A stretch of 36,496 bases of DNA from an uncultured Prevotellaceae bacterium (lineage in GTDB: Bacteria > Bacteroidota > Bacteroidia > Bacteroidales > Bacteroidaceae): assembly GCA_902800435.1 (NCBI GenBank), contig CADCEQ010000042.1, positions 1 to 36,496 on the forward strand. The letters are read 5' to 3'. The notes beneath the pieces were generated by a model that made no database searches, had not been told where the DNA came from, and saw only the letters and a list, made by a program, of their open reading frames with translations. Both the position numbers and the translations under genes were made by a program. This document shows positions 6,357-36,496 of this stretch, in pieces. Numbering within the stretch: the first letter of the stretch is position 1; the number at the start of each line of letters is the position of its first letter.

Positions 6357-8780
6357 TTATTTCATCCGCTCCAGCAGCATGGCGAGGTTTTCGAGGTCGC
6401 GCGGGTCGACATTCAGGTCGAGCAGGTTGCCGTTGCGGTCGAAGAGCTTGTAGGTGGGCCAGCTGTGGACGTCAAGGTGGCGCTCGATGGCGCTCTGCTG
6501 TTCGGCGGGCAGGTTATAGTGAGCCACGTTGGGGCCGCTGACGTTATACTCCTTGATGACGTTCTCCCACGACGTCTGCGGGCTGCTGTTGGCCAGGTAG
6601 AGGAACTCGATGTCGAAGTCCTTCAGCCGGGCGTACTCCTCGGTGGAGTGGCTGAGTGCCTCCTTGCAGGGGCCGCACCACGTGCCCCAGATGTCCAAGA
6701 GCACGAACTTGCCCTTGTAAGGCTCAATAATCTTCTTCAGCAGCGCCTCGCCCTCGCTGAGGTCGGCCAGATTGTCGGACGATTTGAGCACCAGCTTGTC
6801 GAACTCGCGGTTCTCGATGGCGAGGTATCGGTCGTTCAGCTTCTCTATCTGCGCAATGGCAAGGGGATTGGCGGTCATGGCCCTCAGCGTGTCGATGATG
6901 GCGGGCGACAAGGCCGTGCGGCTGTGGTCAATCTCGTCGTAAACCATCTTGGAGAGGTAGATGTCCTTGATGAATGGAGAGGCATGGAGCGAGTCGAGCG
7001 TCTTCCGGCCGTCTTTCAGCCGGAGATTCAGCAGATGTCCCCTTACCAGCTTTGAGGCTTTCGGCGTGTTGAGAATCTTCTCGGCACTCTTTATCAGGTC
7101 GGCATTCTTCTCGTTCAGTTCCTCGGCTATCTTCTGTTTCTCCTCATCGGTGGGAGCAGCCATCACCTTGGCCTGGGCGTCGGTGAGCCAGTCCTTCCAG
7201 CGGTTGAGCAGTGCCAGCTCTTCGTCGTTCGAGGCTATCTCGTCCACAAGGTCCAGATAGCTGACGGTGAACGTAGAATTGCGTCCACGTTCGGCATCGT
7301 CCAAGTAGTCGCGGACAAACGTCCGCACGTCGCGGTAGAGCGTGAAGGGGAATGAGCCGTCGAGCTTCGTCCAGAACGTGTCGTGGGCATAGCTTCGGGC
7401 ACTGGCTGACAGTTGGAAGTCCTTTGTCATGAAACGGGCCTGTCCCAGTTCGCGCGCCTGATTCCAGAACATACTGCCCTTCACATAGCTGATGAAGCGC
7501 GTCGAGAGCGTGGGCTGTGCCTGGCTGTGGGCATCGACGTCGGCATTATACGACTTGAGCAGGCTGTCAACGGATGCGACGTAGCGGTCGAGGCGTTCCG
7601 GCGTGACTCTTTCTTCCGAGCGCAACTCGTCAAGCATTTGGTTTCCCTGAAACATCGCTCCGCCACGCCAGTCGTAGATACTCTTGGCCAGCTCGTTCTG
7701 CAGGCGGCAGTCGTCGCCCATGAAGTAGCGGCGGCCCTCCTTGTAGTCGCAGAGCATGAAGTAGGTCTTGCCCGCCTCGAGTATGGTGTTGATGTAGCTG
7801 CGGCCCCAGTCGCAGTAGAACTCCGAACTGTTGAGCACGGGAATCTTCGCTGTGAAGCGGCCCAGGGAGTCCAAGTCGGCATAGACCGACTGCTCGTCGT
7901 CGGTGAAGAAGTTCTGAACGCTGAACTCAAAGGTTTTCTGGCGCTTCAGCTCCTCGGGCATATCCTTCAGCCAGCCCACCACGGTCACGGTGTCCTCCCT
8001 GTAGCCCGTGTCGGCGAAGCTGGTGCGCGTGTCCTTCGTGGGGTAGTCGGGCACGTAGCGGCTGTTCATCATCGCGAGCACCGCCTTGCGGCCGCCAATC
8101 ACTATCGTACGCGTACCTTTCTTATTCTTGCCCACCGTGACCTTCAGCTCGTCTGCGCCGCTGGTCAGCAGCAGCTCGGCCTCGCCCGTCTTGGGGTTCA
8201 CGTCGCGCTGCTTGTACGTCCAGAAGCGGCAGTCGTAGATGGCGCACTCGTCTGTGAATGCTATCACCCAGTCGCCCGTCTGCGGGTCGCGCCAGTACGA
8301 GGGGAACAGCAGCTTCCAGCGCTCCTCAACGGGCTTGACGCCCCTGAACTGGAAGGCCCGGTCGCCGTCGCCCTCGATGAAGTCGAACGAGCGGGTGCCC
8401 TTCGGCAGCGGCTGGAAGTGGAAGACCATGTCGCGCTTGCAGTCCTTGCCGGTATAGGTTTCTGTGTCGAGCTCTATGCCGTCGGCCTTTGTGAGGGCAT
8501 AGCGGCGGTCCCCCGCCTTCAGGTAGGTGTCGCCGGCAAACCGGAACCAGTTGCCGCGCCCGGGAAACGATATTTGTCGCGCCGTGATGTACACCACCGT
8601 CTCCGTGTCCTTCAGCTCCACCTTTGTGATGTCGAGCGAGAGGCTGGTGGCTCCGTCGCCGTAAGCATTTCCATACTCCGTAGTGGGCTGTTCCCACACG
8701 ATTGTTTTCTCTTTTGCCCAGCCCGTCGTTGCGACAAGTGCAAGCAGCAGGGCCATCATGGTTGATTTCATCTTCATCAT
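6357..8780 (-). CDS. Large secreted thioredoxin-fold (TlpA/AhpC-TSA-like) protein
   Basis: 807 residues with a signal peptide (MMKMKSTMMALLLALVATTGWA). The first ~600 residues are a beta-rich then helical region without a motif I know. The C-terminal ~130 residues are a TlpA-like thioredoxin domain with LLDIWGTWCGPCKEAL; the CGPC site is at about 702-705 and the cis-Pro loop at SWPTYKLF. Such proteins reduce disulfides in the Bacteroidetes periplasm. It is transcribed from its own promoter at 8816-8846. The next gene downstream, the third sigma factor, starts 61 nt after its stop with no convincing terminator, so read-through is possible. Confidence 0.88.
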   Translation of the reverse strand: MMKMKSTMMALLLALVATTGWAKEKTIVWEQPTTEYGNAYGDGATSLSLDITKVELKDTETVVYITARQISFPGRGNWFRFAGDTYLKAGDRRYALTKADGIELDTETYTGKDCKRDMVFHFQPLPKGTRSFDFIEGDGDRAFQFRGVKPVEERWKLLFPSYWRDPQTGDWVIAFTDECAIYDCRFWTYKQRDVNPKTGEAELLLTSGADELKVTVGKNKKGTRTIVIGGRKAVLAMMNSRYVPDYPTKDTRTSFADTGYREDTVTVVGWLKDMPEELKRQKTFEFSVQNFFTDDEQSVYADLDSLGRFTAKIPVLNSSEFYCDWGRSYINTILEAGKTYFMLCDYKEGRRYFMGDDCRLQNELAKSIYDWRGGAMFQGNQMLDELRSEERVTPERLDRYVASVDSLLKSYNADVDAHSQAQPTLSTRFISYVKGSMFWNQARELGQARFMTKDFQLSASARSYAHDTFWTKLDGSFPFTLYRDVRTFVRDYLDDAERGRNSTFTVSYLDLVDEIASNDEELALLNRWKDWLTDAQAKVMAAPTDEEKQKIAEELNEKNADLIKSAEKILNTPKASKLVRGHLLNLRLKDGRKTLDSLHASPFIKDIYLSKMVYDEIDHSRTALSPAIIDTLRAMTANPLAIAQIEKLNDRYLAIENREFDKLVLKSSDNLADLSEGEALLKKIIEPYKGKFVLLDIWGTWCGPCKEALSHSTEEYARLKDFDIEFLYLANSSPQTSWENVIKEYNVSGPNVAHYNLPAEQQSAIERHLDVHSWPTYKLFDRNGNLLDLNVDPRDLENLAMLLERMK

Positions 8781-8815
8781 TTAGTCTTTTCGGTAAGGTC
8801 TTTCAAAATACGCTG

Positions 8816-8846
8816 CAAAGATACGACATTTTGCTGATAGCAGCAA
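8816..8846 (-). promoter_or_regulatory. Bacteroidetes-type promoter for thioredoxin-fold gene
   Basis: -33 TTGC (8846-8843), 19-nt spacer and -7 TATCTTTG (8823-8816) on the minus strand, 36 nt before the ATG. It fits the TTTG / TAnnTTTG consensus. Confidence 0.75.
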
Positions 8847-8895
8847 GCAATCGCTGTTTTTCTTTGGTTAAGAAAACGAAAAGGATAATAATTAC

Positions 8896-8949
8896 TTTGC
8901 TCCGTCCAAACCCCTCATTTACTCCGAGCAAACGCCGCGTTTGCTCCGG
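8896..8949. repeat. 54-bp intergenic repeat, copy 1
   Basis: Aligns without gaps to 28237-28290 with 42 of 54 positions identical by my count. It contains an inverted repeat GAGCAAAC-GCCGC-GTTTGCTC. It lies between two divergent genes. Confidence 0.8.
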
Positions 8950-9030
8950 CTAAAAGCCCCGCTAACCGGATTCCGGCGGCGTAGCGAAAAAAAACATGGA
9001 TTGCAGGTATGGAAATTGGTAAAAAAGATG

Positions 9031-9038
9031 TATCTTTG
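9031..9038 (+). promoter_or_regulatory. -7 box for GH43 gene
   Basis: TATCTTTG followed by CACCC, 28 nt before the ATG at 9067. No good -33 box at the usual spacing. Confidence 0.6.
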
Positions 9039-9066
9039 CACCCAGAAACCGAAACCTGAAAAAACG

Positions 9067-10752
9067 ATGAAGAAGAAAATCTTTCTTGCAGCAGCCCTCA
9101 CGGCAGCTTGCATACAGACCAACGCACAGACTCTGGGCACCGACTACAAGGGTGCCAGCAATGCCAACCCCATCAGCGCCAGCGTGTTCTGCGCCGACCC
9201 GACGGCCATCGACTACAACGGGCGGCTCTACGTCTACGGCACCAACGACCACCAGCAGTTTATCATCAACAAGAAGTCGGGCTCAAACGGCTACGGCAAC
9301 ATCAAATCGCTGGTCGTATTCTCGACCGACGACATGGTAAACTGGACATTTCACGGCACCATCGACGTGGGAAAGGTCTGCACGTGGGCCGGGCAGTCAT
9401 GGGCTCCGTCGGCCGTGTGGCGCACGACGGCTGCGGGCAACGATGAATTCTTCATCTATTTCGCCAACGGCGGCGGCAGCGTGGGCGTCATGAAGAGCAC
9501 GGTATCGCCGGTAGGGCCCTACAAGTCGCCAAGATCGAGCGCCATGATTACTCAAGACACACCAGGCGTAAGGCCCTGCAACTGGGTGTTCGACCCGGGT
9601 GCCGTCATCGACTCCACCGGTCAGGGCTGGATAGCCTTCGGCGGCGGCGACCCGCAGTCGTCGGGCTCGAAGTTGTGGCCGGGCAATTCGCGTATTGCCA
9701 AGCTGAAGCCCTCGATGACCGCCATCGACGGTTCGGCTGTCAACATGCCTGCTCCCTACCTGTTTGAGGCCAGCGAGCTGAACATCATCGGCGGCCGCTT
9801 CGTCTATACCTACAACACGTCGTGGAGCGACCGCAACGACTGGTCGAAGTTTGCCGGGCGCAACGGTCAGGCAGCCCCGTCGTCGTGCAGCATGTGCTAT
9901 ATGGTAAGCGACACCCCACTCGAGCCCGAGTCGTGGGAGTATCGCGGCGAATACGTACCCAACGAGGGCAACTTCAACATGGGCTGGGGCAACAACCACA
10001 CCCACCTGCACAAGTTCCAAGGCAACTACTATCTGTTCTACCACTCCACCGTGCTGGAGTCGGCCATGAACACCGGCGCCTCGGGATTCCGCTCCATCGG
10101 CGTGAACAAGGCTACGGTGAACGAGACGAAGCAGAACATCACCAAGATGACGCTGAACAAGACGGGCGTCACCGCCATCAAGAACCTCGACCCCTACATT
10201 CTGCAGCAGGCCGAGACAATGGCAACCAGCGGCGGCATCGCCTACGAGGACTTCAGCAACATATCGAAGAACACCAGCATCAGCAGCCTGGGCAACGACG
10301 CCTCGCGCGAGCTGCAGGTAAAGATGAAGGCCGGCTCGTGGACTCAGCTGCGCAAGGTTGACTTCGGCAGTCAGGGTGCCGTCAGCCTCAAAATCCGCAC
10401 CAAGGGCACGGGAACCATCGAGGTACGCCTCGGCACCAGAACGGCAAAGGCTGCCGCTACCCTTGAATGCTCGTCGACCGTCTTCGAGGAAAAGACCGTT
10501 GATGTCGACCCGTCGGTATTCACGGGCGTCAAGAACGTCTTCTTCGTCTGCACCGACGGCACCAGCCTCTACTTCGACAACTGGCAGTTCAGCGACACAC
10601 AGCCCGACGCCGTAACCGCCCCCGCCGCAGCCACGAAGGCTCCCGACGGCACCTACCGCCTCGACGGCTCCACCGTCAACGCCGGCACCCAGCCCCGCGG
10701 CCTCGTCATCGAGCGCAAGGCCGGACAAAGCCGCAAGCGGATAGTCAGATAA
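9067..10752 (+). CDS. Secreted GH43 family glycosidase with CBM6-like domain
   Basis: 561 residues from the ATG at 9067, which lies below the promoter and gives the signal peptide MKKKIFLAAALTAACIQTNA. A frame open further upstream is not coding. The GH43 beta-propeller spans ~25-370. I assign the catalytic base to Asp44 (FCADPTAI), the pKa modulator to Asp176 (VFDPGAVID) and the acid to Glu234 (YLFEASEL). A CBM6-like beta-sandwich follows at ~380-525 (QAETMA at the start, SLYFDNWQF at the end). The tail TYRLDGSTVNAGTQPRGLV resembles a degenerate Bacteroidetes C-terminal sorting tail. The likely substrate is arabinoxylan or a related hemicellulose. It stands alone, with no SusC/D beside it. 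Confidence 0.92.
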   Translation: MKKKIFLAAALTAACIQTNAQTLGTDYKGASNANPISASVFCADPTAIDYNGRLYVYGTNDHQQFIINKKSGSNGYGNIKSLVVFSTDDMVNWTFHGTIDVGKVCTWAGQSWAPSAVWRTTAAGNDEFFIYFANGGGSVGVMKSTVSPVGPYKSPRSSAMITQDTPGVRPCNWVFDPGAVIDSTGQGWIAFGGGDPQSSGSKLWPGNSRIAKLKPSMTAIDGSAVNMPAPYLFEASELNIIGGRFVYTYNTSWSDRNDWSKFAGRNGQAAPSSCSMCYMVSDTPLEPESWEYRGEYVPNEGNFNMGWGNNHTHLHKFQGNYYLFYHSTVLESAMNTGASGFRSIGVNKATVNETKQNITKMTLNKTGVTAIKNLDPYILQQAETMATSGGIAYEDFSNISKNTSISSLGNDASRELQVKMKAGSWTQLRKVDFGSQGAVSLKIRTKGTGTIEVRLGTRTAKAAATLECSSTVFEEKTVDVDPSVFTGVKNVFFVCTDGTSLYFDNWQFSDTQPDAVTAPAAATKAPDGTYRLDGSTVNAGTQPRGLVIERKAGQSRKRIVR

Positions 10753-10952: not shown

Positions 10953-10984
10953 TTTGGGAGAAATCGCCAAACATCGTACCTTTG
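10953..10984 (+). promoter_or_regulatory. Promoter of the sulfur/encapsulin operon
   Basis: -33 TTTG (10953-10956), 20-nt spacer and -7 TACCTTTG (10977-10984), 21 nt before the first ATG. Strong match to the Bacteroidetes consensus. No other clear promoter is seen before 17873, so it probably serves nine genes. Confidence 0.82.
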
Positions 10985-11005: not shown

Positions 11006-12178
11006 ATGAAGAAGCAGACAACAGCCATACATACGCCATACGTCCGGCCCGATGCTTACGGGTCGCTGGCGGTCCCCATATATAATAATGTGTCGTTCGA
11101 GTTCGACGATGCACAGACGATGAGCGATGCCTTCTGCAACCGCATCAAGGCTCCCGACTACGCCCGTATAGCCAACCCCACGGTGACACAGTTCGAACAG
11201 CGGGTGAAGGCGCTGACGGAGGCTGAGCACGTAACGGCACTGAACTCAGGCATGGCAGCCATCAGCACCGTGCTCCTGGCTGTGGCTGCTCAGAGTAAGA
11301 ACATCGTCACCTCGCGCCACCTGTTTGGCAACACGCTAGCACTCATCAGCGGTACGCTGCTGCGCCTCGGCGTCAAGCCACGCCTGCGCGACCTGACCGA
11401 CCTGGAAGCCGTAGAGGCTGCCGTCGACGAGCAGACTGCCTGCGTGTACTTAGAGACGGTCACTAATCCGCAGTTAGAGGTGGCCGACCTGAAGGGCATC
11501 GCCGACATTGCCCACAGGAAGGGCGTGCCCGTGATTGCCGACTCTACCGTGATTCCCTTTACGGAGACCTCGCTGAAGGATCTGGGTGTTGACGTCGAAG
11601 TGGTGTCGAGCACGAAATATATCTCGGGCGGCGGCACGTCGTTAGGCGGTCTGATTATCGACTACGGCACCTTCCCGCTCATCAACAAGCTGGTGAAGTA
11701 CGACCTGCTCATCAACCTCGGCGTCTACATGACGCCGCAGACGGCCTACATGCAGACACTCGGCCTGGAGACGCTCGACGTGCGCTACCAGCGGCAGGCA
11801 GCCAATACGCTGTGGCTGGCCGAGGCGCTCAGAGAGCTGCCCGCCATTACCGGCGTCAACTACGTGGGACTGAAGGATAATCCCTTTCACGAGCTGGCCG
11901 TCAGACAGTTCGGGCCGACGGCGGGAGCCATGCTCACCATCGACCTGCAGTCGAAGGAGGCATGCTTCGGATTCCTTAACCGTCTGCAGCTGATTCACAG
12001 GGCCACTAACCTCTTCGACAGTCGCACGCTGGCCATCCATCCCGCCTCGACTATCTTCGGCCTGTTCCCTGAAAGGCAATTGCAACAGATGGACGTGCGG
12101 CAGACCACCATCCGTCTCTCCGTCGGACTTGAAGCCCCCGAAGATCTCCTGCAAGACATTCAACAAGCCCTCTCATAA
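11006..12178 (+). CDS. PLP-dependent Cys/Met-metabolism enzyme (MetY / cystathionine gamma-synthase-like)
   Basis: 390 residues from the ATG at 11006. An upstream TTG in frame lies inside the promoter and is not used. The fold-type I PLP signature is complete: substrate/PLP loop YARIANPTVTQFEQRV (~52-67), LNSGMAAIS (~79-87) for phosphate binding, ADSTVIPF (~178-185) with the ring-contacting Asp, and the Schiff-base lysine in SSTKYISGGGTSLGG (Lys204). This family attaches sulfur to O-acylated homoserine or serine, or makes cystathionine. Here it sits with a thiocarboxylate carrier, its activating enzyme and a JAMM protease, as MetY does in the homocysteine pathway of Wolinella succinogenes, so I favour O-acetylhomoserine sulfhydrylase using carrier-bound sulfur. 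Exact substrate is inference. First gene of the operon, 12 nt before the next. Confidence 0.88.
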   Translation: MKKQTTAIHTPYVRPDAYGSLAVPIYNNVSFEFDDAQTMSDAFCNRIKAPDYARIANPTVTQFEQRVKALTEAEHVTALNSGMAAISTVLLAVAAQSKNIVTSRHLFGNTLALISGTLLRLGVKPRLRDLTDLEAVEAAVDEQTACVYLETVTNPQLEVADLKGIADIAHRKGVPVIADSTVIPFTETSLKDLGVDVEVVSSTKYISGGGTSLGGLIIDYGTFPLINKLVKYDLLINLGVYMTPQTAYMQTLGLETLDVRYQRQAANTLWLAEALRELPAITGVNYVGLKDNPFHELAVRQFGPTAGAMLTIDLQSKEACFGFLNRLQLIHRATNLFDSRTLAIHPASTIFGLFPERQLQQMDVRQTTIRLSVGLEAPEDLLQDIQQALS

Positions 12179-12190
12179 AACAGATAAGAA

Positions 12191-12667
12191 ATGGAACAGA
12201 AGAAACTAAGCATCATCGCCTTCAGTGGCGATTTCGACAAGCTGACCGCCGTATTTACATTAGGTACGGGCGCAGCAGCCGTAGGCTACGAGGTGAACAT
12301 CTTCTTCACCTTCTGGGGACTCGACGCCATCAAGCAGAAGCAGGGGCGCTCGTTCACAGGCGGCAATTGGCTGACGAAGATTTTCGGCTTCATGATGGGC
12401 GGACTGAAGGTCACTCCCACGAGCCGTTTCAACTTCCTCGGCGCAGGCCCGAAGATATTCCGCTACCTGATGCGCAAGAACAACGTGGCAACGCTCGAAG
12501 AGCTCGTCGAGGCTGCCAAGGCGCTCGGCATCAACCTCTACGCCTGCGAGATGGCGATGCATGTGCTCGGCCTGAAGAAGGAGGACTTTATTCCCGAGGT
12601 GAAGGACGTGCTCGGCGTGGCTTCGTTTCTGAACCTGAGCGAAGGGGGACAGACGTTATTCATCTAA
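12191..12667 (+). CDS. DsrE/DsrF-like sulfur-carrier family protein
   Basis: 158 residues. The sequence follows the DsrE2-type pattern: KLSIIAFSGDFDKLTAVFTL at the start, YEVNIFFTFWGL (~33-44), FGFMMGG (~65-71), and the conserved cysteine in LYACEMAMHVLGL (Cys119), the likely persulfide site. DsrE proteins pass sulfane sulfur to TusA-type partners, and a TusA-like gene follows 13 nt downstream. It is probably cytoplasmic; two hydrophobic stretches could hint at membrane contact. Role in the operon: relay of persulfide sulfur. Family call is firm, direction of transfer unknown. Confidence 0.88.
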   Translation: MEQKKLSIIAFSGDFDKLTAVFTLGTGAAAVGYEVNIFFTFWGLDAIKQKQGRSFTGGNWLTKIFGFMMGGLKVTPTSRFNFLGAGPKIFRYLMRKNNVATLEELVEAAKALGINLYACEMAMHVLGLKKEDFIPEVKDVLGVASFLNLSEGGQTLFI

Positions 12668-12680
12668 AAAAGCTACAGAT

Positions 12681-12905
12681 ATGGCAACAAAAGTATTAGA
12701 CATCACGAAGGAGCACTGCCCGATGACCTTCGTCAAGACCAAGATTGAGCTGTCGAAGCTTAGTGAGGGCGACATCCTGGAAGTGCTGCTCGCCGAGGGC
12801 GAACCGCTCGACAACGTGCCGCGCAACGCCAAGGAGCAAGGCTACAACGTGCTCTCCGTTGAGCATGTGGAAGGTACGACACATAAGGTAACGATTAAAA
12901 AGTAA
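12681..12905 (+). CDS. TusA-like sulfurtransferase
   Basis: 74 residues, the normal TusA length. The active-site motif near the N-terminus is HCPMTFVKTKIELSKL, with Cys13 as the expected persulfide carrier; classical TusA has CPxP, here CPMT. The fold pattern beta-alpha-beta-alpha-beta-beta is visible, ending in EGTTHKVTIKK. Its partner DsrE is just upstream. I infer that the pair moves sulfane sulfur to or from the cysteine desulfurase and the thiocarboxylate carrier encoded downstream. A spacer of 53 nt made of GTAAAA repeats separates it from the shell gene. Confidence 0.88.
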   Translation: MATKVLDITKEHCPMTFVKTKIELSKLSEGDILEVLLAEGEPLDNVPRNAKEQGYNVLSVEHVEGTTHKVTIKK

Positions 12906-12951
12906 AAAGGTAAAAGGGTAAAAAAGTAAAAAGGTAAAAACATAAAAACTA
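12902..12951 (+). repeat. A-rich GTAAAA repeat tract
   Basis: Imperfect units such as AAAAGGTAAAAGGGTAAAAA in tandem between the tusA-like stop and the encapsulin start. A similar tract lies on the minus strand at 22018-22057. Confidence 0.8.
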
Positions 12952-12958
12952 AACGATT

Positions 12959-14278
12959 ATGGCAGATTCTAATTTACAGCGCAGTGTGACCACTGCTACC
13001 GCCAGAAGACTGGCGACCACCACCAAGACCGCCCCGCAGATGGGCAGTATCACCCCGAGACTATTGCTGAAACTCCTGCCTTGGGTGCAGGTCAGCGGCG
13101 GCACATTCCGCGTAAACCGCACGAAGGTGGAACTCCGCAAGAACGACCGACTGCCCATTCAGTACGTGAACGGCGTGCCCTCGTTTACGGCGAAGAACCT
13201 GAAGGCTATTCCCCTGTTCTCTGAGTTCGACGACGAGATCCTGAATCGTCTGGTTAGCTCGTTCGAGACCAAGGAGGTTGACGTAGACCAGCTCTTCGTC
13301 GAGGAGGGCAAGGACAAGCAGCGCTTCTTCATCGTGGCCAGCGGTCAGGCTGAGGTCATCAGCAAGGGACCTCACGGAGAGGACCTGCGGATTGCCCTGC
13401 TGGGCGACGGTGAGTACTTTGGCGAGGCCGACTTGCTCGACGAGCAGGAGTCGACGGTCAGCGTTCGCGCCATCACGCCGACTGTGTTCCTCGGACTGAA
13501 GCTGAAGGAACTGATCAAGTTTATCAAGGAGGTGCCCGACTTCCGTGAGACGTTCAACAAGGCCGTCGACAAGCAACTGCGCCTGAAGGCATCGGTGAAC
13601 GACAACGGCGAGAAGCACATCGACCTGGTCTCGGGTCACGAGGAGGACAACATTATTCCCGAGACCTACATCGACTACGAGGAGAACCCCACCGAATATG
13701 CACTGAACACGCTGCAGACCGTTGTTCGTGTGCATACCCGCGTCAGCGACCTCTACAATAATCCCTACAACCAGCTGGAAGAGCAGCTGCGCCTGTCAAT
13801 CGAAAGCATCAAGGAGCGCCAGGAGTGGGAGCTCATCAACAACAAGCAGTTCGGACTGCTGGCCGCTACCAACCCCGCCTACCGCATCACGACGCGCTAC
13901 GGTGCCCCCACCCCCGACGACCTCGACGAGCTGCTGTCGCTGGTTTGGAAGGAGCCTGCCTTCTTCATGAAGGTCATTCTGTGGCGCGGCGTGCCCCTGA
14001 TTCCTTCCGACAAGGTGGAGGTAGAAGGCCAGTATCTGACGGGCCGCGGCGTTGGCACGACGAAGATTATCCTCGTGCGCGTCGGCGAAAAGAATCAGGG
14101 TGTAGTCGGTCTGCACCAGAGCGGCATTCCCGGCGAGATTGCCCCCAGCCTGAGCGCCCGTCTGATGGGACTCGACAAGTTTGGCGTGGCCTCGTATCTG
14201 CTCACGAAGTACTTCTCACTGGCCTCACTGACTGACGATGCCATCGCCGGAGAATGTCGAGGTGGGCTATTATCATGA
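12959..14278 (+). CDS. Family 2B encapsulin nanocompartment shell protein with cNMP-binding-like insertion (frameshifted C-terminus)
   Basis: 439 residues. HK97-type Family 2 encapsulin segments: N-arm ARRLATTTKTAPQMGSITPR (~15-34); LLKLLPWVQVSGGTFRVNR (~36-54); spine region YALNTLQTVVRVHTRVSDLY (~247-266); GAPTPDDLDELLSLVWKEPAFF (~315-336, written here in part); LWRGVPLIPSDKVEV; GVVGLHQSGIPGE; MGLDKFGVASYLLTKYFSLA. Between E-loop and spine, residues ~80-205, is a cyclic-nucleotide-binding-like domain (FFIVASGQAEV, GEYFGEADLL), which defines subtype 2B. The usual phosphate-binding arginine is absent (DEQESTVSV). Two oddities: about 35 residues normally lying between KEPAFF and WRGVP appear deleted, and the C-terminus ENVEVGYYHDYQHRK is in the +1 frame at 14250-14297 while this frame ends GECRGGLLS. 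The gene may be degenerating, or the sequence may contain errors. Confidence 0.9.
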   Translation: MADSNLQRSVTTATARRLATTTKTAPQMGSITPRLLLKLLPWVQVSGGTFRVNRTKVELRKNDRLPIQYVNGVPSFTAKNLKAIPLFSEFDDEILNRLVSSFETKEVDVDQLFVEEGKDKQRFFIVASGQAEVISKGPHGEDLRIALLGDGEYFGEADLLDEQESTVSVRAITPTVFLGLKLKELIKFIKEVPDFRETFNKAVDKQLRLKASVNDNGEKHIDLVSGHEEDNIIPETYIDYEENPTEYALNTLQTVVRVHTRVSDLYNNPYNQLEEQLRLSIESIKERQEWELINNKQFGLLAATNPAYRITTRYGAPTPDDLDELLSLVWKEPAFFMKVILWRGVPLIPSDKVEVEGQYLTGRGVGTTKIILVRVGEKNQGVVGLHQSGIPGEIAPSLSARLMGLDKFGVASYLLTKYFSLASLTDDAIAGECRGGLLS

Positions 14279-14297
14279 CTATCAGCATAGGAAATAG
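14250..14297 (+). pseudogene. Out-of-frame conserved C-terminus of the encapsulin
   Basis: In the +1 frame relative to the shell gene this stretch encodes ENVEVGYYHDYQHRK and then TAG. It resembles the conserved end of Family 2 shells. The in-frame sequence DDAIA lies directly before it, so a small indel near 14246-14250 separated the two. Confidence 0.75.
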
Positions 14298-14300
14298 AAG

Positions 14301-14335
14301 ACCCACCCCCAACCCCTCCCTGTATGGAGGGGAGT
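14301..14335 (+). repeat. Dispersed GC-rich stem-loop repeat, copy B (intergenic)
   Basis: CACCCCCAACCCCTCCCTGT followed by ATGGAGGGGAGT. The stem is CCCCTCC/GGAGGGG with a 6-nt loop. No T run follows, so I do not call it a terminator. It lies between the shell and cargo genes. Confidence 0.8.
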
Positions 14336-14350
14336 AAATAGATTTAGCGT

Positions 14351-15796
14351 ATGATTGATATACAGAACATAAGCGGCTACGGACTGGAAGACCCTGGCTT
14401 CGCGCTGCTCCGTGAGGTGGCGCAGAAGTACTGCCCGGAGGAGTTTCAGGAACAGCGGAAAGAATATTTTCCGCTGCCTGAAGACGAGCCGCTGAATCTT
14501 TCAGCCATTCAGACCGATGAGCCTTTCGGCATTGGCATTCCTGAAACGCAGAAGTTACAGGACTTGCACTATGCTGAAGTGGACACGCTGAACTCCGAAC
14601 AGATCAAGAAGGACTTCCCCGTGCTCAACCAGAAGGTGAACGGCCACGACCTCGTATGGCTCGACAACGGGGCGACGACGCAGAAGCCGAATCAGGTCAT
14701 CGACAAGATTTCGGATTATTATCGCACGTACAACTCGAACATCCATCGCGGAGCGCACACATTGGCAGCCCGTGCGACGGATGCCTACGAGGAGGCCCGC
14801 GAGAAGGTGCAGCGGTTCATCAACGCCGCTACGAGCGAGGAGATCATCTTCGTTCGAGGCACCACCGAGGGCATCAACCTCGTGGCGCAGACCTACGGCC
14901 GACAGTTCCTGACGCCAGGCGACGAGGTCATCGTCTCGGAACTCGACCACCACGCCAACATCGTTCCTTGGCAGCGCGTCTGCCAGGAGCGCGGGGCCAC
15001 GTTGCGTGCCATTCCGACCGACCAGAACGGCGACCTGATACTCTCAGAGTTCGAACGGCTCATCACGCCCCGCACGCGGTTTGTTTCGGTAGGCCATGTG
15101 AACAATACGTTTGGCACCATCAACGACGTGCAGCGCATCATCGACATTGCCCATTCGCACCAGATTCCCGTGCTGATAGACGGCGCACAGTCCATCGCCC
15201 ACACGCCAGTTGATGTGCAGCAGCTGGGTACCGACTTCTTCGTCTTCTCTGGCCACAAAATCTATGGGCCAAACGGCATCGGCGTGGTGTACGGCCGCAA
15301 GGAACTGCTCGACAAGATGCAGCCTTGGCAGGGTGGCGGCAACATGATCAAGGACGTGACGATTGAGCGCACAGAGTACAACGTGCCTCCCGCCCGCTTC
15401 GAGGCTGGGACGCCCAACGTGGCCGATGCCATCGGACTGGGTGCAGCCCTCGACTACGTTGCCCATCTTGGCATCCGCAATATCGAGGCGCATGAGCACA
15501 AGCTGACGGAGTATGCCCGCGAGCAGCTTGGCCAGATTCCCGGTCTGACGCTCATCGGCAATCCAAAGAACCGCGTATCGGTGGTGAGCTTCGTGCTCGA
15601 CGGCATCCCCGTGCCCGAGGTCGGAACCCTGCTCGACAAGGAGGGCATCGCCGTACGTGCGGGCCACCACTGTGCCCAGCCAGCCCTGCGCGCCTTAGGC
15701 TACGAGATGAGCGTCCGTCCCACCTTCGCCCTCTACAACACCCGCGAGGACGTGGACAAATTAGTAATTGCAGTAAAAAAGATTATAGGAAGATAG
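14351..15796 (+). CDS. SufS-type cysteine desulfurase with N-terminal extension, probable encapsulin cargo
   Basis: 481 residues. The catalytic part begins near residue 85 (IKKDFPVLNQKVNGHDLVWL) and matches SufS/CsdA class II desulfurases: PLP lysine Lys303 in FSGHKIYGPNGIG, ring-contacting Asp in LIDGAQSIAHTPV, and the sulfur-accepting Cys441 in VRAGHHCAQPALRALGY. The ~85-residue extension before it is acidic and Pro-containing (YFPLPEDEPLNL). Housekeeping SufS lacks this. Cysteine desulfurases with N-terminal targeting extensions are the characteristic cargo of Family 2 encapsulins. No sufBCD genes are nearby, arguing against a housekeeping Fe-S role. Expected reaction: L-cysteine to alanine plus enzyme persulfide, feeding stored sulfur or the carrier proteins. 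The downstream carrier gene starts 3 nt later. Confidence 0.92.
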   Translation: MIDIQNISGYGLEDPGFALLREVAQKYCPEEFQEQRKEYFPLPEDEPLNLSAIQTDEPFGIGIPETQKLQDLHYAEVDTLNSEQIKKDFPVLNQKVNGHDLVWLDNGATTQKPNQVIDKISDYYRTYNSNIHRGAHTLAARATDAYEEAREKVQRFINAATSEEIIFVRGTTEGINLVAQTYGRQFLTPGDEVIVSELDHHANIVPWQRVCQERGATLRAIPTDQNGDLILSEFERLITPRTRFVSVGHVNNTFGTINDVQRIIDIAHSHQIPVLIDGAQSIAHTPVDVQQLGTDFFVFSGHKIYGPNGIGVVYGRKELLDKMQPWQGGGNMIKDVTIERTEYNVPPARFEAGTPNVADAIGLGAALDYVAHLGIRNIEAHEHKLTEYAREQLGQIPGLTLIGNPKNRVSVVSFVLDGIPVPEVGTLLDKEGIAVRAGHHCAQPALRALGYEMSVRPTFALYNTREDVDKLVIAVKKIIGR

Positions 15797-15799
15797 ACT

Positions 15800-16012
15800 A
15801 TGGCAAAAGTAACAGTAAACGGAGAGCCGCAGGAGGTGCAGTTGCCTCTCAGCCTCACAGAGCTAATCAGGCAGAACGACGTGCAGCAGCCCGAAATGGT
15901 CAGCGTGCAGTTGAACGACGACTTCGTCGACCGCAACGAGTGGGACGCCCTGCTGATCAAGGAGGGTGACTCAGTAGATTTTCTGTACTTCATGGGAGGA
16001 GGCTCACTATGA
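15800..16012 (+). CDS. ThiS/MoaD-like sulfur carrier with extended C-terminus (GGGSL)
   Basis: 70 residues, a beta-grasp ubiquitin-like protein: MAKVTVNGEPQEVQLP (beta hairpin), SLTELIRQND (helix), MVSVQLNDDFVDRNEWDALL and EGDSVDFLYFMGGGSL. ThiS and MoaD end in an exposed Gly-Gly. Here the glycines (66-68) are followed by Ser-Leu, so the tail must be trimmed before adenylation and thiocarboxylation. In Wolinella succinogenes HcyS carries one extra residue that its partner JAMM protease HcyD removes; a JAMM gene is two genes downstream here. Its stop overlaps the start of the activating-enzyme gene by 4 nt, typical of such pairs. Function by family and context. Confidence 0.9.
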   Translation: MAKVTVNGEPQEVQLPLSLTELIRQNDVQQPEMVSVQLNDDFVDRNEWDALLIKEGDSVDFLYFMGGGSL

Positions 16013-16818
16013 TTGACTTCACAGAAGAACAGATACAGCGCTACTCACGGCACATCCTGCTGCAGGATGTCGGCGTCGAGGGACAGGAGAAGATCATGAG
16101 CGCCCGCGTGCTCGTGGTGGGCGCCGGCGGACTGGGAGCTCCCGTGTCGCTCTACCTCGCTGCGGCAGGCATCGGCACCATCGGTATCATCGATGCCGAC
16201 GTGGTCGACCTGAGCAACCTCCAGCGCCAGGTCATTCACTTCACCAAGGACGTGGGCGTGCCGAAGGTGCAGAGTGCGAAGGAGAAGATCGAGGCCATCA
16301 ACCCCGACGTGAAGGTGGACACCTACTACGAGTTTCTCGACTCGTCGAACGCCCTCGACATCATCAAGCAGTACGACTTCATCGTCGACGGCACGGACAA
16401 CTTCCCCGTGAAGTTCCTCATCAACGATGCATGCGTGATGGCGGGCAAGCCGTTCTCACACGGCGGCATCCTGCGCTTCAACGGCCAGACGTTTACCCAT
16501 CTGCCCGGCACGGCCTGCTACCGCTGCATGTTCAAGGAGCCGCCTCCCGTTGGCGCTGTGCCCACCTGCTCGCAGGCAGGCGTCTTAGGCGCCATCGCCG
16601 GTATGCTGGGCACCATCCAGGCCGCCGAGACGCTGAAGTACTTCACGGGCATCGGCCAGCTGCTGACAAACCGTCTGCTTACCTTCGATGCCAAGACCAT
16701 GCAGTTCCGCACCGTTCCCGTCCGTCATCGTGACTCATGCGCCATCTGCGGCACCCACCCCACAATCGACCACCTGATAGACTACCAACAGGCCGCCTGC
16801 GACCTCAAGAACCACTAA
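16009..16818 (+). CDS. E1-like adenylyltransferase (ThiF/MoeB/HcyF type)
   Basis: 269 residues. Nucleotide-binding Rossmann motif VLVVGAGGLGAPVSLYLAA (~34-52), IIDADVVDLSNLQRQ (~60-74) with the conserved Asp and Arg, and VDGTDNFPVKFLIND (~126-140). Two CxxC pairs (Cys170/Cys173 and Cys244/Cys247) form the structural zinc site. Cys187 (VPTCSQAG) is at the usual position of the mobile cysteine. It adenylates the C-terminal glycine of the partner carrier so that sulfur can be added as a thiocarboxylate. No moa, moe or thi genes are near, so neither molybdopterin nor thiamine synthesis is suggested. It overlaps the carrier gene by 4 nt and precedes the protease by 4 nt. Confidence 0.93.
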   Translation: MIDFTEEQIQRYSRHILLQDVGVEGQEKIMSARVLVVGAGGLGAPVSLYLAAAGIGTIGIIDADVVDLSNLQRQVIHFTKDVGVPKVQSAKEKIEAINPDVKVDTYYEFLDSSNALDIIKQYDFIVDGTDNFPVKFLINDACVMAGKPFSHGGILRFNGQTFTHLPGTACYRCMFKEPPPVGAVPTCSQAGVLGAIAGMLGTIQAAETLKYFTGIGQLLTNRLLTFDAKTMQFRTVPVRHRDSCAICGTHPTIDHLIDYQQAACDLKNH

Positions 16819-16822
16819 GCAA

Positions 16823-17224
16823 ATGGAGATACCACAGAATATCATTGATGAATTGATCAGCCAGGCCCGGCAGGACGCGCCCAACGAGACGTGCGGCTAC
16901 CTGCTGGGCACCGGCGGGGCTGACGAGGAGGCTCTCGTGACCGAGAACTACTGGATGGAGAACATCGACCACTCGCCCGAGCACTTCTCCTTCGCACCCA
17001 AGGACCAGTTTGCCGCGCTGAAATACGCTCGGAGCAAAGGTCTGAAGATACTTGCCAACTGGCACAGTCACCCTGCGTCGCCCTCCCGTCCTTCGCAAGA
17101 GGACCTGCGTCTGGCCAACGACCCCACCATCCGCTACGCCATCCTCTCGCTTCACGAGGACGTTCACCTGAACTCCTTCAAGATCCTGAACGGCGAAGTG
17201 GTAGACAAAGAAATACACTTTTAA
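16823..17224 (+). CDS. JAMM/MPN+ metallopeptidase (Mec/HcyD type)
   Basis: 133 residues. The JAMM zinc site is intact: Glu22 (NETCGYLLG), His81 and His83 (NWHSHPASPS), and Asp94 (SQEDLRLAND). Prokaryotic JAMM proteases beside ThiS-like carriers remove residues beyond Gly-Gly and cleave amino acids off the carrier (Mec+ with CysO in mycobacteria, HcyD with HcyS in Wolinella). Both jobs fit here: trimming the SL tail and releasing the finished sulfur amino acid. It is cytoplasmic, with no signal peptide. Tightly packed in the operon (4 nt after the E1 gene, 1 nt before the regulator). Confidence 0.92.
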   Translation: MEIPQNIIDELISQARQDAPNETCGYLLGTGGADEEALVTENYWMENIDHSPEHFSFAPKDQFAALKYARSKGLKILANWHSHPASPSRPSQEDLRLANDPTIRYAILSLHEDVHLNSFKILNGEVVDKEIHF

Positions 17225-17225
17225 C

Positions 17226-17873
17226 ATGGCTAACTACATACTCGCCGACAATCAGGACTTGACACGTTTCGCCACCGAGATACTCATCCGTCAGAAAGAT
17301 GCAAGATGCACCGTCAGAAGGGCAACAGACAAAGCCGGGCTGATACAGCTGCTCAAGGAAATCGAGGGTGCCGTCGTTGTTCTCGATTTCACACTCTTCG
17401 ACTTCGTTGACGAACAGCAGCTTCTTATCATCAGCGAGCGGTTCAACATGGCTTCATGGATTCTTGTCAGCGACCATCTTACCGACAGCTTCCTGCGCCG
17501 CGTCGTCTATTCGTCAAACGCTTTTAGCATCGTCTTTAAGAGCGAGCCACTTACGTGTATGCGCGATGCCCTGCTGTCGGCAGCCAGCGGCAGGCGGTAT
17601 ATCAGCCAGCAGGCTACCGAGATTCTCTTGAAGCAACACCAGGATGAAGAGGAAGCAAATGTCGGGCTGACCACCACAGAAATTGAAATTGTGAAGGCCA
17701 TAGCCCGCGGACTGACTACAAAGGAAATAGCCGCCGAGCGCTTCTCCAGCATTCACACCATCACCACACACCGCAAGAACATATTCCGAAAGCTGAAAGT
17801 CAACACCGCACACGAGGTCATCAAGTATGCCATGCGTGCCGGCTTAGTAAACCCCAGCGAATTCTACATCTGA
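17226..17873 (+). CDS. LuxR/NarL-type response regulator
   Basis: 215 residues. The N-terminal receiver-like domain (~1-115) has acidic residues in LADNQDLT (Asp8, Asp11), the likely phosphoacceptor Asp54 in VVLDFTLFDF, and Lys105 in IVFKSEP, so it looks phosphorylatable. The C-terminal LuxR helix-turn-helix (~145-210) contains LTTTEIEIVKAIARGLTTKE and the recognition helix HTITTHRKNIFRKL. No sensor kinase is adjacent. It is co-transcribed with the sulfur genes, 1 nt after the protease gene, so it may tune their expression. Its end overlaps the convergent symporter gene by 10 nt. Confidence 0.92.
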   Translation: MANYILADNQDLTRFATEILIRQKDARCTVRRATDKAGLIQLLKEIEGAVVVLDFTLFDFVDEQQLLIISERFNMASWILVSDHLTDSFLRRVVYSSNAFSIVFKSEPLTCMRDALLSAASGRRYISQQATEILLKQHQDEEEANVGLTTTEIEIVKAIARGLTTKEIAAERFSSIHTITTHRKNIFRKLKVNTAHEVIKYAMRAGLVNPSEFYI

Positions 17874-19069
17874 TCATTCTTCAAGTCGTGGTCGACCATT
17901 GCACATACGCACGAGTCAGACCATACATTCTCTGCCGTCTCCACCATGTCGATAACGGTGTAGATGGGCAGGATGAGCCCCATGACAGCTACAGGAGCGC
18001 CAATGCCCGACATGAGCGAGAAGGTGAGGAAATAGCAGCCCATAGGTACACCGGCATTGCCGATGGCCGATATAACGCTGAGGAAGAGCCACAACAGCAC
18101 AGTGGGCACCGTAATGACAGAGCCGCCGTTTTGCATCACGAAGAGCGAGGTGACCAGGATAAAAGCCGCACAGCCATTCATGTTGATCGTGGTACAGATT
18201 GGCAACACGAAGCGTGCCACCTGTGGTCTGGCGCTCAGCCGCATTTCGGCACTGCGCATAGTGACGGGCAGCGTCGCAGCACTGCTCTTCGTAAACAGGG
18301 CCATGAGCACCGCAGGACTCATTTCCTTGAGTGCTTTCAACGGGTTAATGCCACGTGCCAGAAGGAACAGGGGCAGGACTACGAAGAACTGTATGGCGTT
18401 GCCGCCCAAAACCACTAATACGTACTTGCCCAACGATCCGGCCACAATCCCTGCCGACAGCTGGACCGACAATTGGGCGGCAAAAGCCAAGATACCAAGT
18501 GGCAGCACCTGGATGAGCCAGCCGATGAGCTGGATGAGCAATTCCTGCAACCCCTGCAGGCCTTTCACCACAACCCCTTTGTTCTCCGACTCGGGCAGCC
18601 GTGACAAAGCTATACCCACGGCGAAGGCCAGGAGCAGCAGCGAGAGTACGTTGCCTTCGAGCAGCGGTCGGACGATATTGTTGGGCACCACGCTTATCAG
18701 GTGGGTAAAGAGCGATGCCGATTCTGCACCATCCACGCCGGATGCCGGTTGCTGAGCTATCAGCTCTTCAGGCAGGTTTGACGGGGCAATGGCAAAGTAG
18801 AGAATTGCCCCCACTGCCGCAGCGCTGACGGTGGTCAGCAGCGTGTAGGTAAGTGTGTGTCGGAACAGCCGCCCCGTGTTCCTGCCCGTCCCCATCTGGG
18901 CCATCGTGTTCACAATTGCTAACACGATGGTTGGCACAGCCAGCAGTTGGAACAGTCGGGTAAAGACCGTAGCCACCACTTCGGCCACAGAGTTGACAGC
19001 CCCTATGTTTAGCCATCCTAACACGGCACCCGCGACGAGGGCTGCCATCCAAATAATCATTTGTCTCAT
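17864..19069 (-). CDS. DAACS-family sodium (or proton):amino acid/dicarboxylate symporter
   Basis: 401 residues, strongly hydrophobic with the eight-helix-plus-hairpins pattern of the GltP/DctA/TcyP family. The first re-entrant hairpin has FTKSSAATLPVT. The motif usually NMDGT reads INMNGCAAF here, with Asp to Asn and Thr to Cys; NGCA recalls the cystine transporter TcyP, from memory. Substrate therefore uncertain: acidic amino acid, serine/threonine, dicarboxylate or cystine. It follows the TonB receptor gene by 2 nt and is the last gene of a six-gene operon that otherwise encodes outer-membrane uptake. Inner-membrane uptake of whatever that operon liberates is the natural inference. Confidence 0.88.
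   Translation of the reverse strand: MRQMIIWMAALVAGAVLGWLNIGAVNSVAEVVATVFTRLFQLLAVPTIVLAIVNTMAQMGTGRNTGRLFRHTLTYTLLTTVSAAAVGAILYFAIAPSNLPEELIAQQPASGVDGAESASLFTHLISVVPNNIVRPLLEGNVLSLLLLAFAVGIALSRLPESENKGVVVKGLQGLQELLIQLIGWLIQVLPLGILAFAAQLSVQLSAGIVAGSLGKYVLVVLGGNAIQFFVVLPLFLLARGINPLKALKEMSPAVLMALFTKSSAATLPVTMRSAEMRLSARPQVARFVLPICTTINMNGCAAFILVTSLFVMQNGGSVITVPTVLLWLFLSVISAIGNAGVPMGCYFLTFSLMSGIGAPVAVMGLILPIYTVIDMVETAENVWSDSCVCAMVDHDLKNDQM

Positions 19070-36401: not shown

Positions 36402-36496
<95 letters not shown>

Follow-up and report, generated by a model that had tools for sequence, protein, structure and literature searches.

The stretch of DNA analysed here, referred to as the window, comprises 36,496 nucleotides of contig CADCEQ010000042.1 from an uncultured Prevotellaceae bacterium. 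It carries nine genes encoding, among others, a Family 2B encapsulin shell, a cysteine desulfurase, two sulfur relay proteins and a sulfur carrier with a MetY-type enzyme. These genes form a real, conserved operon, which is a new combination of two known systems, and a flow of sulfur from the shell to homocysteine is its best, though unproven, reading. The original prediction had described nine tightly spaced genes of named families; all nine are real and in place on the + strand, their families are confirmed by Pfam and NCBIfam profiles, and the spacing between them ranges from a 4-base overlap to 72 bases:

11006-12178, + strand: MetY-like enzyme dependent on pyridoxal 5'-phosphate (PLP), assigned to the Wolinella thiocarboxylate type (PF01053, 301 bits)
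12191-12667, + strand: DsrE2, stand-alone sulfur relay protein (PF13686, 138 bits)
12681-12905, + strand: TusA sulfur relay protein, with the Cys in HCPMT (PF01206, 72 bits)
12959-14278, + strand: Family 2B encapsulin shell gene, damaged in the window (NF041163, 474.5 bits; cut-off 400)
14351-15796, + strand: SufS-type cysteine desulfurase with an N-terminal extension, putative shell cargo (PF00266, 502 bits)
15800-16012, + strand: ThiS-like sulfur carrier ending in GGG-SL, a masked C-terminus (PF02597, TIGR01683)
16009-16818, + strand: E1-like (MoeB/ThiF) carrier-activating enzyme (PF00899; NF004281, 279 bits; cut-off 266)
16823-17224, + strand: JAMM protease, HcyD/Mec-like (PF14464)
17226-17873, + strand: LuxR/NarL-type regulator, loosely associated (PF00196)

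The eight genes besides the shell gene have reading frames as long as those of their relatives. Since the LuxR-type gene is placed elsewhere or unmatched in many relatives, it was dropped as a core member, and the core set consists of metY, dsrE, tusA, the shell gene, the desulfurase gene (csd), thiS, the E1 gene and jamm.

Conservation of the operon

The operon was compared with 99 relative loci (80 named contigs and 19 regions), which contain 95 distinct shells, four loci being duplicates; loci and genomes are cited below by L and G numbers. All eight core genes are matched at 68 of the 99 loci (64 of the 95 distinct ones), a few of them cut at a contig end, and are nearly whole at 63 (59 distinct). 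In order A, found at 43 loci, jamm, E1 and thiS run one way and dsrE, tusA, shell, csd and metY the opposite way. The window-type order B occurs at 20 loci, order C (metY, thiS, E1, dsrE, tusA, jamm, shell, csd) at three, and the remaining two loci have other orders. Most incomplete loci are cut by contig ends; L045, L057, L061, L079 and L171 have some 8 kb or more of sequence to either side of them and still lack some or all of the carrier genes.

A survey of 251 genomes of the family, with counts uncorrected for relatedness, revealed the shell in 33 and a close JAMM relative in 35. Both occur in 31 genomes, the shell only in two, the JAMM only in four and neither in 214. The shell, JAMM and DsrE2 counts are assumed to cover the same 251 genomes, as the genomes listed for each agree, the lists naming only part of them. 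In the two shell-only genomes (G307 and G328), the shell contig breaks off inside csd or some 0.4 kb past it, and JAMM-only G315 has its JAMM pieces at contig ends. Stand-alone DsrE2 is encoded in 32 of the 33 shell genomes and in none of the 218 others, in which the DsrE2 matches all lie in frames of at least 693 residues; the shell contig of the exception, G001, begins just before TusA. A shell above the cut-off is found in 10 of 60 genomes of the genus of G001 and in none of 40 from other families of the order. Conserved co-occurrence of the shell with carrier, E1, JAMM and MetY genes, which the original prediction had proposed to look for, is borne out by the 68 loci with all eight genes matched and the 31 genomes with both markers, and unrelated shell neighbours in other genomes, the outcome that would have spoken against it, were looked for and not found.

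Components of the proposed relay

The best solved match of the window MetY is 3ri6 (324 bits; the next, 249), as it is for the order-A MetY of L046 (347 versus 247 bits). A passage in PMC11568248 identifies 3ri6 as the Wolinella enzyme. The window protein scores 308 bits against the NCBIfam profile of the O-acetylhomoserine enzyme, below the cut-off of 495. In the MetY tree, the Prevotella-type enzymes and 3ri6 form a group of 26 rows (support 100/99); the two enzymes of f56, another family, lie next to it, and the ordinary MetY of related genomes fall outside (100/100). Judged by its sequence relationships, the window MetY is a dedicated Wolinella-type enzyme, as expected of the thiocarboxylate pathway. 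Three MetY enzymes of shell-less Prevotella also lie inside the 26-row group. At L293 and L294, in genomes without a shell or JAMM match, kin of the operon MetY accompany a PatB/MalY-like gene (a class I/II aminotransferase-type gene, named by eye here and below), possibly as an ordinary cystathionine pair.

The carrier has the masked GG end of a thiocarboxylate pathway: the window protein ends in GGG-SL, and one or more residues beyond FMGG(G) are present in 75 of the 76 operon carriers with a stop codon (71 of 72 distinct), the tail being two residues long in 43. Tails of 23 and 40 residues are possibly misread ends, and the L069 carrier is without the FMGG(G) motif. A broad protein search with the carrier as query yielded 1633 hits. 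The JAMM active site HSHP-x6-S-x2-D is conserved in 74/74 rows and the TusA motif [EK]HCPMT in 96/96, the window included in each.

Covariation was analysed in the window and 61 complete loci, which give 58 different rows, the 99 loci having been reduced to 61 by dropping those with incomplete genes. Between orders A and B, MetY has a median identity of 57% and the carrier one of 69%, compared with 85-96% for the six other genes. The residual distances of MetY and carrier, left after subtracting the part explained by dsrE, tusA, shell and csd, correlate at 0.83, those of the other five pairs at -0.02 to 0.18, and the classes of the two proteins agree in 62/62 rows. The A/B type changes at least seven times on the tree of the six other genes (a quick LG+G4 tree without bootstrap and with a long-branch warning for L177), with four independent contrasts on well-supported branches. 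A sign test on these four contrasts gives p 0.125, the lowest value attainable; the pairing argument rests on the repeated change and on the intervening genes. Four genes, dsrE, tusA, shell and csd, separate metY from thiS in both orders, and E1, which adjoins thiS, does not follow the type. These patterns are good evidence, at the sequence level, that MetY and carrier are partners.

The shell protein combines PF19307 and PF00027, a SrpI-like HK97 domain with a cyclic-nucleotide-type insertion, which places it in Family 2B. Part of PMC12407261 reports that the inserted domain of such shells was found not to bind cyclic nucleotides. The shell gene has its best relatives in rumen and other ruminant-gut Prevotella-type bacteria. 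L093, on a contig labelled Alistipes, has a shell gene 92% like that of the window, possibly a binning error. At L089, a 430-residue opposite-strand frame (8430-9722), which may be a mobile gene that inserted there, separates tusA from the shell gene. Family 2B shell genes also occur in green sulfur bacteria (L179-L193), with a desulfurase match at 14 of 15 loci; the FMO protein was present in all six tested. At L186, serine acetyltransferase (SAT)-like and CysK-like genes accompany the shell, as do MetY-type enzymes and a LuxR regulator like that of the window, and ThiS and ThiG lie next to them. Because ThiG lies between them, the carrier and E1 beside the green sulfur shell were dropped as support. 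In L194, which belongs to a further family of the class (f45), the SrpI-like shell lacks the insertion and is accompanied by desulfurase, SAT-like and CysK-like genes.

One desulfurase encapsulin reportedly stores elemental sulfur. Passages of PMC12407261 go no further than describing desulfurase cargos as involved in sulfur storage. The SufS-type desulfurase of the operon (TIGR01979, 566 bits; cut-off 475.1) bears about 80 extra N-terminal residues, and the active-site Cys motif R[AT]GHHCAQP is found in 93/98 desulfurase rows. Its extension contains LREVAQKYC. We devised a loose pattern, L..[ILVM]A..[FYLW][FCYLM], to match loading motif 1 (LARLANEFFS) as given in part of PMC8049743; this pattern, chosen after viewing the sequences, is matched by 90/97 extensions and 10/1940 shuffles. 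It is also matched by 4/4 f45-type cargos and by none of the four green sulfur cargos tried. By analogy, the desulfurase is likely to be loaded into the shell.

Proposed sulfur flow and competing explanations

We read the gene set as a sulfur-relay operon that would carry cysteine sulfur through the shell and desulfurase, TusA and DsrE2, and the carrier to MetY, and thus into homocysteine, with a probability of roughly 0.6. The desulfurase, situated inside the shell where the shell gene is intact, would strip sulfur from cysteine, and TusA and DsrE2 would pass it onward. JAMM would trim the carrier to its GG end and E1 would adenylate the trimmed carrier, which the relay sulfur would convert to a thiocarboxylate. 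The MetY-type PLP enzyme would then join the carrier sulfur to O-acyl-homoserine, and JAMM would release homocysteine and the carrier. Cysteine sulfur would in effect reach homocysteine by a trans-sulfuration that needs neither cystathionine nor free sulfide, the shell serving as a sulfur gate or store. The sequences show the gene families and their active-site motifs, the masking of the carrier, the conserved linkage, the MetY clade and the matching of MetY and carrier types; beyond this we infer cargo loading, sulfur storage, the direction of flow, the thiocarboxylate chemistry and the homocysteine product. A homoserine O-acyltransferase family member is encoded in 16/16 genomes. The original prediction had likewise joined the two systems, a view partly supported, namely by the conserved gene set, the masked carrier and the Wolinella-type MetY; it missed the damage to the window shell and overlooked further PF01053 enzymes, both described below.

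A 2011 paper by Krishnamoorthy and Begley, listed among the references of PMC5764234, reportedly described a protein-thiocarboxylate homocysteine pathway in Wolinella succinogenes, formed by HcyS, HcyF, HcyD and MetY. The operon resembles it in having a masked carrier, an E1 enzyme and a JAMM protease, and its MetY falls in one group with 3ri6. The Wolinella pathway draws its sulfide from sulfite reductase; the operon instead links encapsulin, desulfurase, TusA and DsrE2, and no PF01077 reductase lies within 1.5 kb of it at any of the 99 loci. PF01077 is absent from 8/11 shell genomes and from 5/5 shell-less relatives. In G123 (C24) and G149 (C7), a PF01077 reductase lies 10-12 kb from the carrier, E1 and JAMM genes, the shell being on a different contig.

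The best JAMM matches outside the family are the f56 modules (L276 and L277), whose order is PF01077 sulfite/nitrite reductase, TusA, carrier, MetY, E1, DsrE2, TusA, JAMM; in G535, also of f56, a CysK-like gene and another gene stand between TusA and the carrier. These modules share the TusA, carrier, MetY, E1, DsrE2 and JAMM genes with the operon and have the reductase where the operon has shell and desulfurase, neither of which is matched within their 17 kb. Weaker JAMM matches, L278 and L279, hold E1 and JAMM only. Order C retains the carrier, E1, dsrE, tusA, jamm sequence, followed by shell and csd. We infer from these arrangements that shell and desulfurase joined an older carrier module as its sulfur source. 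The carrier module, originally regarded as part of the shell operon, does belong to a conserved set with the shell and also exists without it, which had been missed. It is nearly an even bet that the nanocompartment replaces sulfite reductase as the sulfur source of the carrier pathway, which would give rumen bacteria a cystathionine- and sulfide-free trans-sulfuration, in which carrier and MetY are exchanged together as a matched pair while the relay stays constant.

Mycobacterial CysO, CysM and Mec make cysteine in a comparable manner, a carrier and a JAMM protease delivering sulfur to a PLP enzyme; the operon differs in using a fold-type I MetY rather than CysM. It also resembles the Family 2 desulfurase encapsulins in pairing a shell with a SufS-type desulfurase bearing an N-terminal extension (parts of PMC8049743 and PMC8346489). 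The same portions of these papers list 199 Family 2B operons with a desulfurase (PMC8346489), serine O-acetyltransferase and rhodanese as accessories, and terpenoid genes as the usual Family 2B neighbours; carrier, E1, JAMM and MetY are not named in these portions. In the open-access literature searched, no description of the combination of shell and desulfurase with carrier, E1, JAMM and MetY was found, in keeping with the original remark that no description of the full combination was known, and encapsulin and Prevotella appear together in two papers, where each word occurs once or twice. Desulfurase encapsulins are widespread, and the operon encodes a concrete chain of acceptors as a candidate destination of their sulfur. 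With two matched types of MetY and carrier on a single relay background, these loci amount to a natural partner-exchange experiment for protein-thiocarboxylate enzymes, and the scheme, if true, would provide a route from cysteine sulfur to methionine in common rumen bacteria.

Several observations weigh against the homocysteine relay, beginning with the damaged shell gene. Relative to L021, the nearest shell relative and the reference for these calls, 84 bases (28 residues) are gone in frame between 13968 and 13969, and five bases are gone near 14248, shifting the C-terminal frame; the window shell has 439 residues, compared with 475-479 in seven aligned relatives. Strict patterns for both lost stretches are matched at 135 of 138 relative loci (111 distinct shell sequences), and L004, L125 and L126 miss one pattern, yet are open over 480-489 codons. 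The window thus lacks an intact Family 2B shell frame, and neither deletion occurs at the 138 loci. The lost internal stretch is also readable in the shells of L194 (Family 2A-like) and L186 (green sulfur). The lesion may be a real deletion or an assembly error, both being compatible with the sequence. Since the window and L021 shells differ over 336 codons by 29 silent and three changing differences, any loss of function is recent. That this strain has lost its shell, the remaining operon acting as an unenclosed relay, is doubtful, though more probable than the other alternatives considered below, and would be compatible with the enclosed relay in its relatives. The two deletions, set beside eight full-length frames, point to such a loss; its recency and the possible assembly error speak against it.

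The cargo, the linkage and MetY raise further objections to the enclosed relay. The desulfurase scores 725.5 bits against NF041166 (f2_encap_cargo1), below the cut-off of 800, with profile positions 1-214 unmatched, and loading motif 2 (AASPYYFLDG) is found in 0/97 desulfurases. The carrier genes lie on contigs other than that of the shell in G123, G149, G166 and G270 and farther along the shell contig in G298, and carrier, E1 and JAMM occur together without a shell in JAMM-only G128, G139 and G334. The matched types track gene order in 62/62 rows, and recombination between two old locus types is therefore another possible source of the pattern; such recombination would equally keep the MetY-carrier pair matched. 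Two of the MetY kin, in shell-less G156 and G025, adjoin a PatB/MalY-like gene without a carrier, which weakens the claim that this MetY needs one. At least one further PF01053 enzyme is encoded in each of the 11 shell genomes checked, and the operon accordingly need not be the only route. Finally, SAT-like hexapeptide transferase genes lie no more than 1.5 kb from one or other of the nine matches at 15/99 loci and CysK-like genes at 11/99 (assigned by families PF00132 and PF00291 only, and named by eye), which makes cysteine a possible outlet.

It is unlikely, however, that the relay feeds cysteine, with stored sulfur passing to O-acetylserine through CysK or a bifunctional MetY and the shell acting as a cysteine-sulfur buffer. 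The neighbouring genes just described, CysK-like genes inside operons such as L161 and L167, and the SAT-like and CysK-like genes adjoining the shell in L186 and L194 would fit this outlet, but 88/99 loci have no CysK-like gene nearby, the MetY types track the carrier types, and MetY clusters with the O-acetylhomoserine enzyme. Still less probable is an ordinary sulfide-using or cystathionine-forming MetY that shares no more than a sulfur theme with its neighbours, carrier, E1 and JAMM serving cofactor or tRNA thiolation. Such a role would suit the carrier-less kin of G156 and G025, the PatB-like gene near the operon at 5/99 loci, and L278 and L279, which have no MetY match. It accords poorly with the joint switch of MetY and carrier across four intervening, unswitched genes and with the f56 MetY sitting between carrier and E1. 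A chance adjacency of thiamin genes, as in green sulfur bacteria, is highly improbable as the origin of carrier and E1, even though the carrier scores above the TIGR01683 thiS cut-off and, at L186, ThiS, ThiG and a ThiH-like radical-SAM gene lie close to the shell. ThiS adjoining ThiG ends exactly in GG at 8/8 loci, of which one is in G133 and the others in seven shell genomes. A strong ThiG match is lacking in four of 11 shell genomes (G251, G204, G282 and G117), two of them with a weak partial one, and all four nevertheless keep the operon carrier; in the remaining seven, ThiG is accompanied by a separate ThiS that ends in GG. These separate ThiS proteins, the masked tails and the lack of ThiG linkage led to rejection of the thiamin reading; as its sequence indicates, the operon carrier is of the masked, non-thiamin kind and not the ThiS of thiamin.

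Promoter and flanking features

Three further features lie outside the nine genes:

10953-10984, + strand: Bacteroidetes-type -33/-7 promoter-like site (TTTG at 10953-10956, 20 nt, TACCTTTG at 10977-10984)
17864-19069, - strand: gene for an SDF-family symporter, facing luxR in convergent orientation, with a 10-base overlap at the luxR end
36403-36496, - strand: 5S rRNA, cut by the window end

The original prediction had placed one good promoter before the operon. A sigma-70 scan detected no promoter at the operon start, and sigma-70 promoter and terminator scans of the window did not rise above shuffles; the upstream site does fit what we take to be the Bacteroidetes -33/-7 consensus. Such a site lies at most 300 bases from metY in 13/20 same-order relatives versus 0.5% of base-shuffled controls. 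At loci of the divergent order A, such a site precedes thiS in 3/47 cases and dsrE in 0/47. An SDF gene lies within 1.5 kb of an operon match in 6/99 relatives. The 5S rRNA is the sole Rfam match in the window at gathering thresholds.

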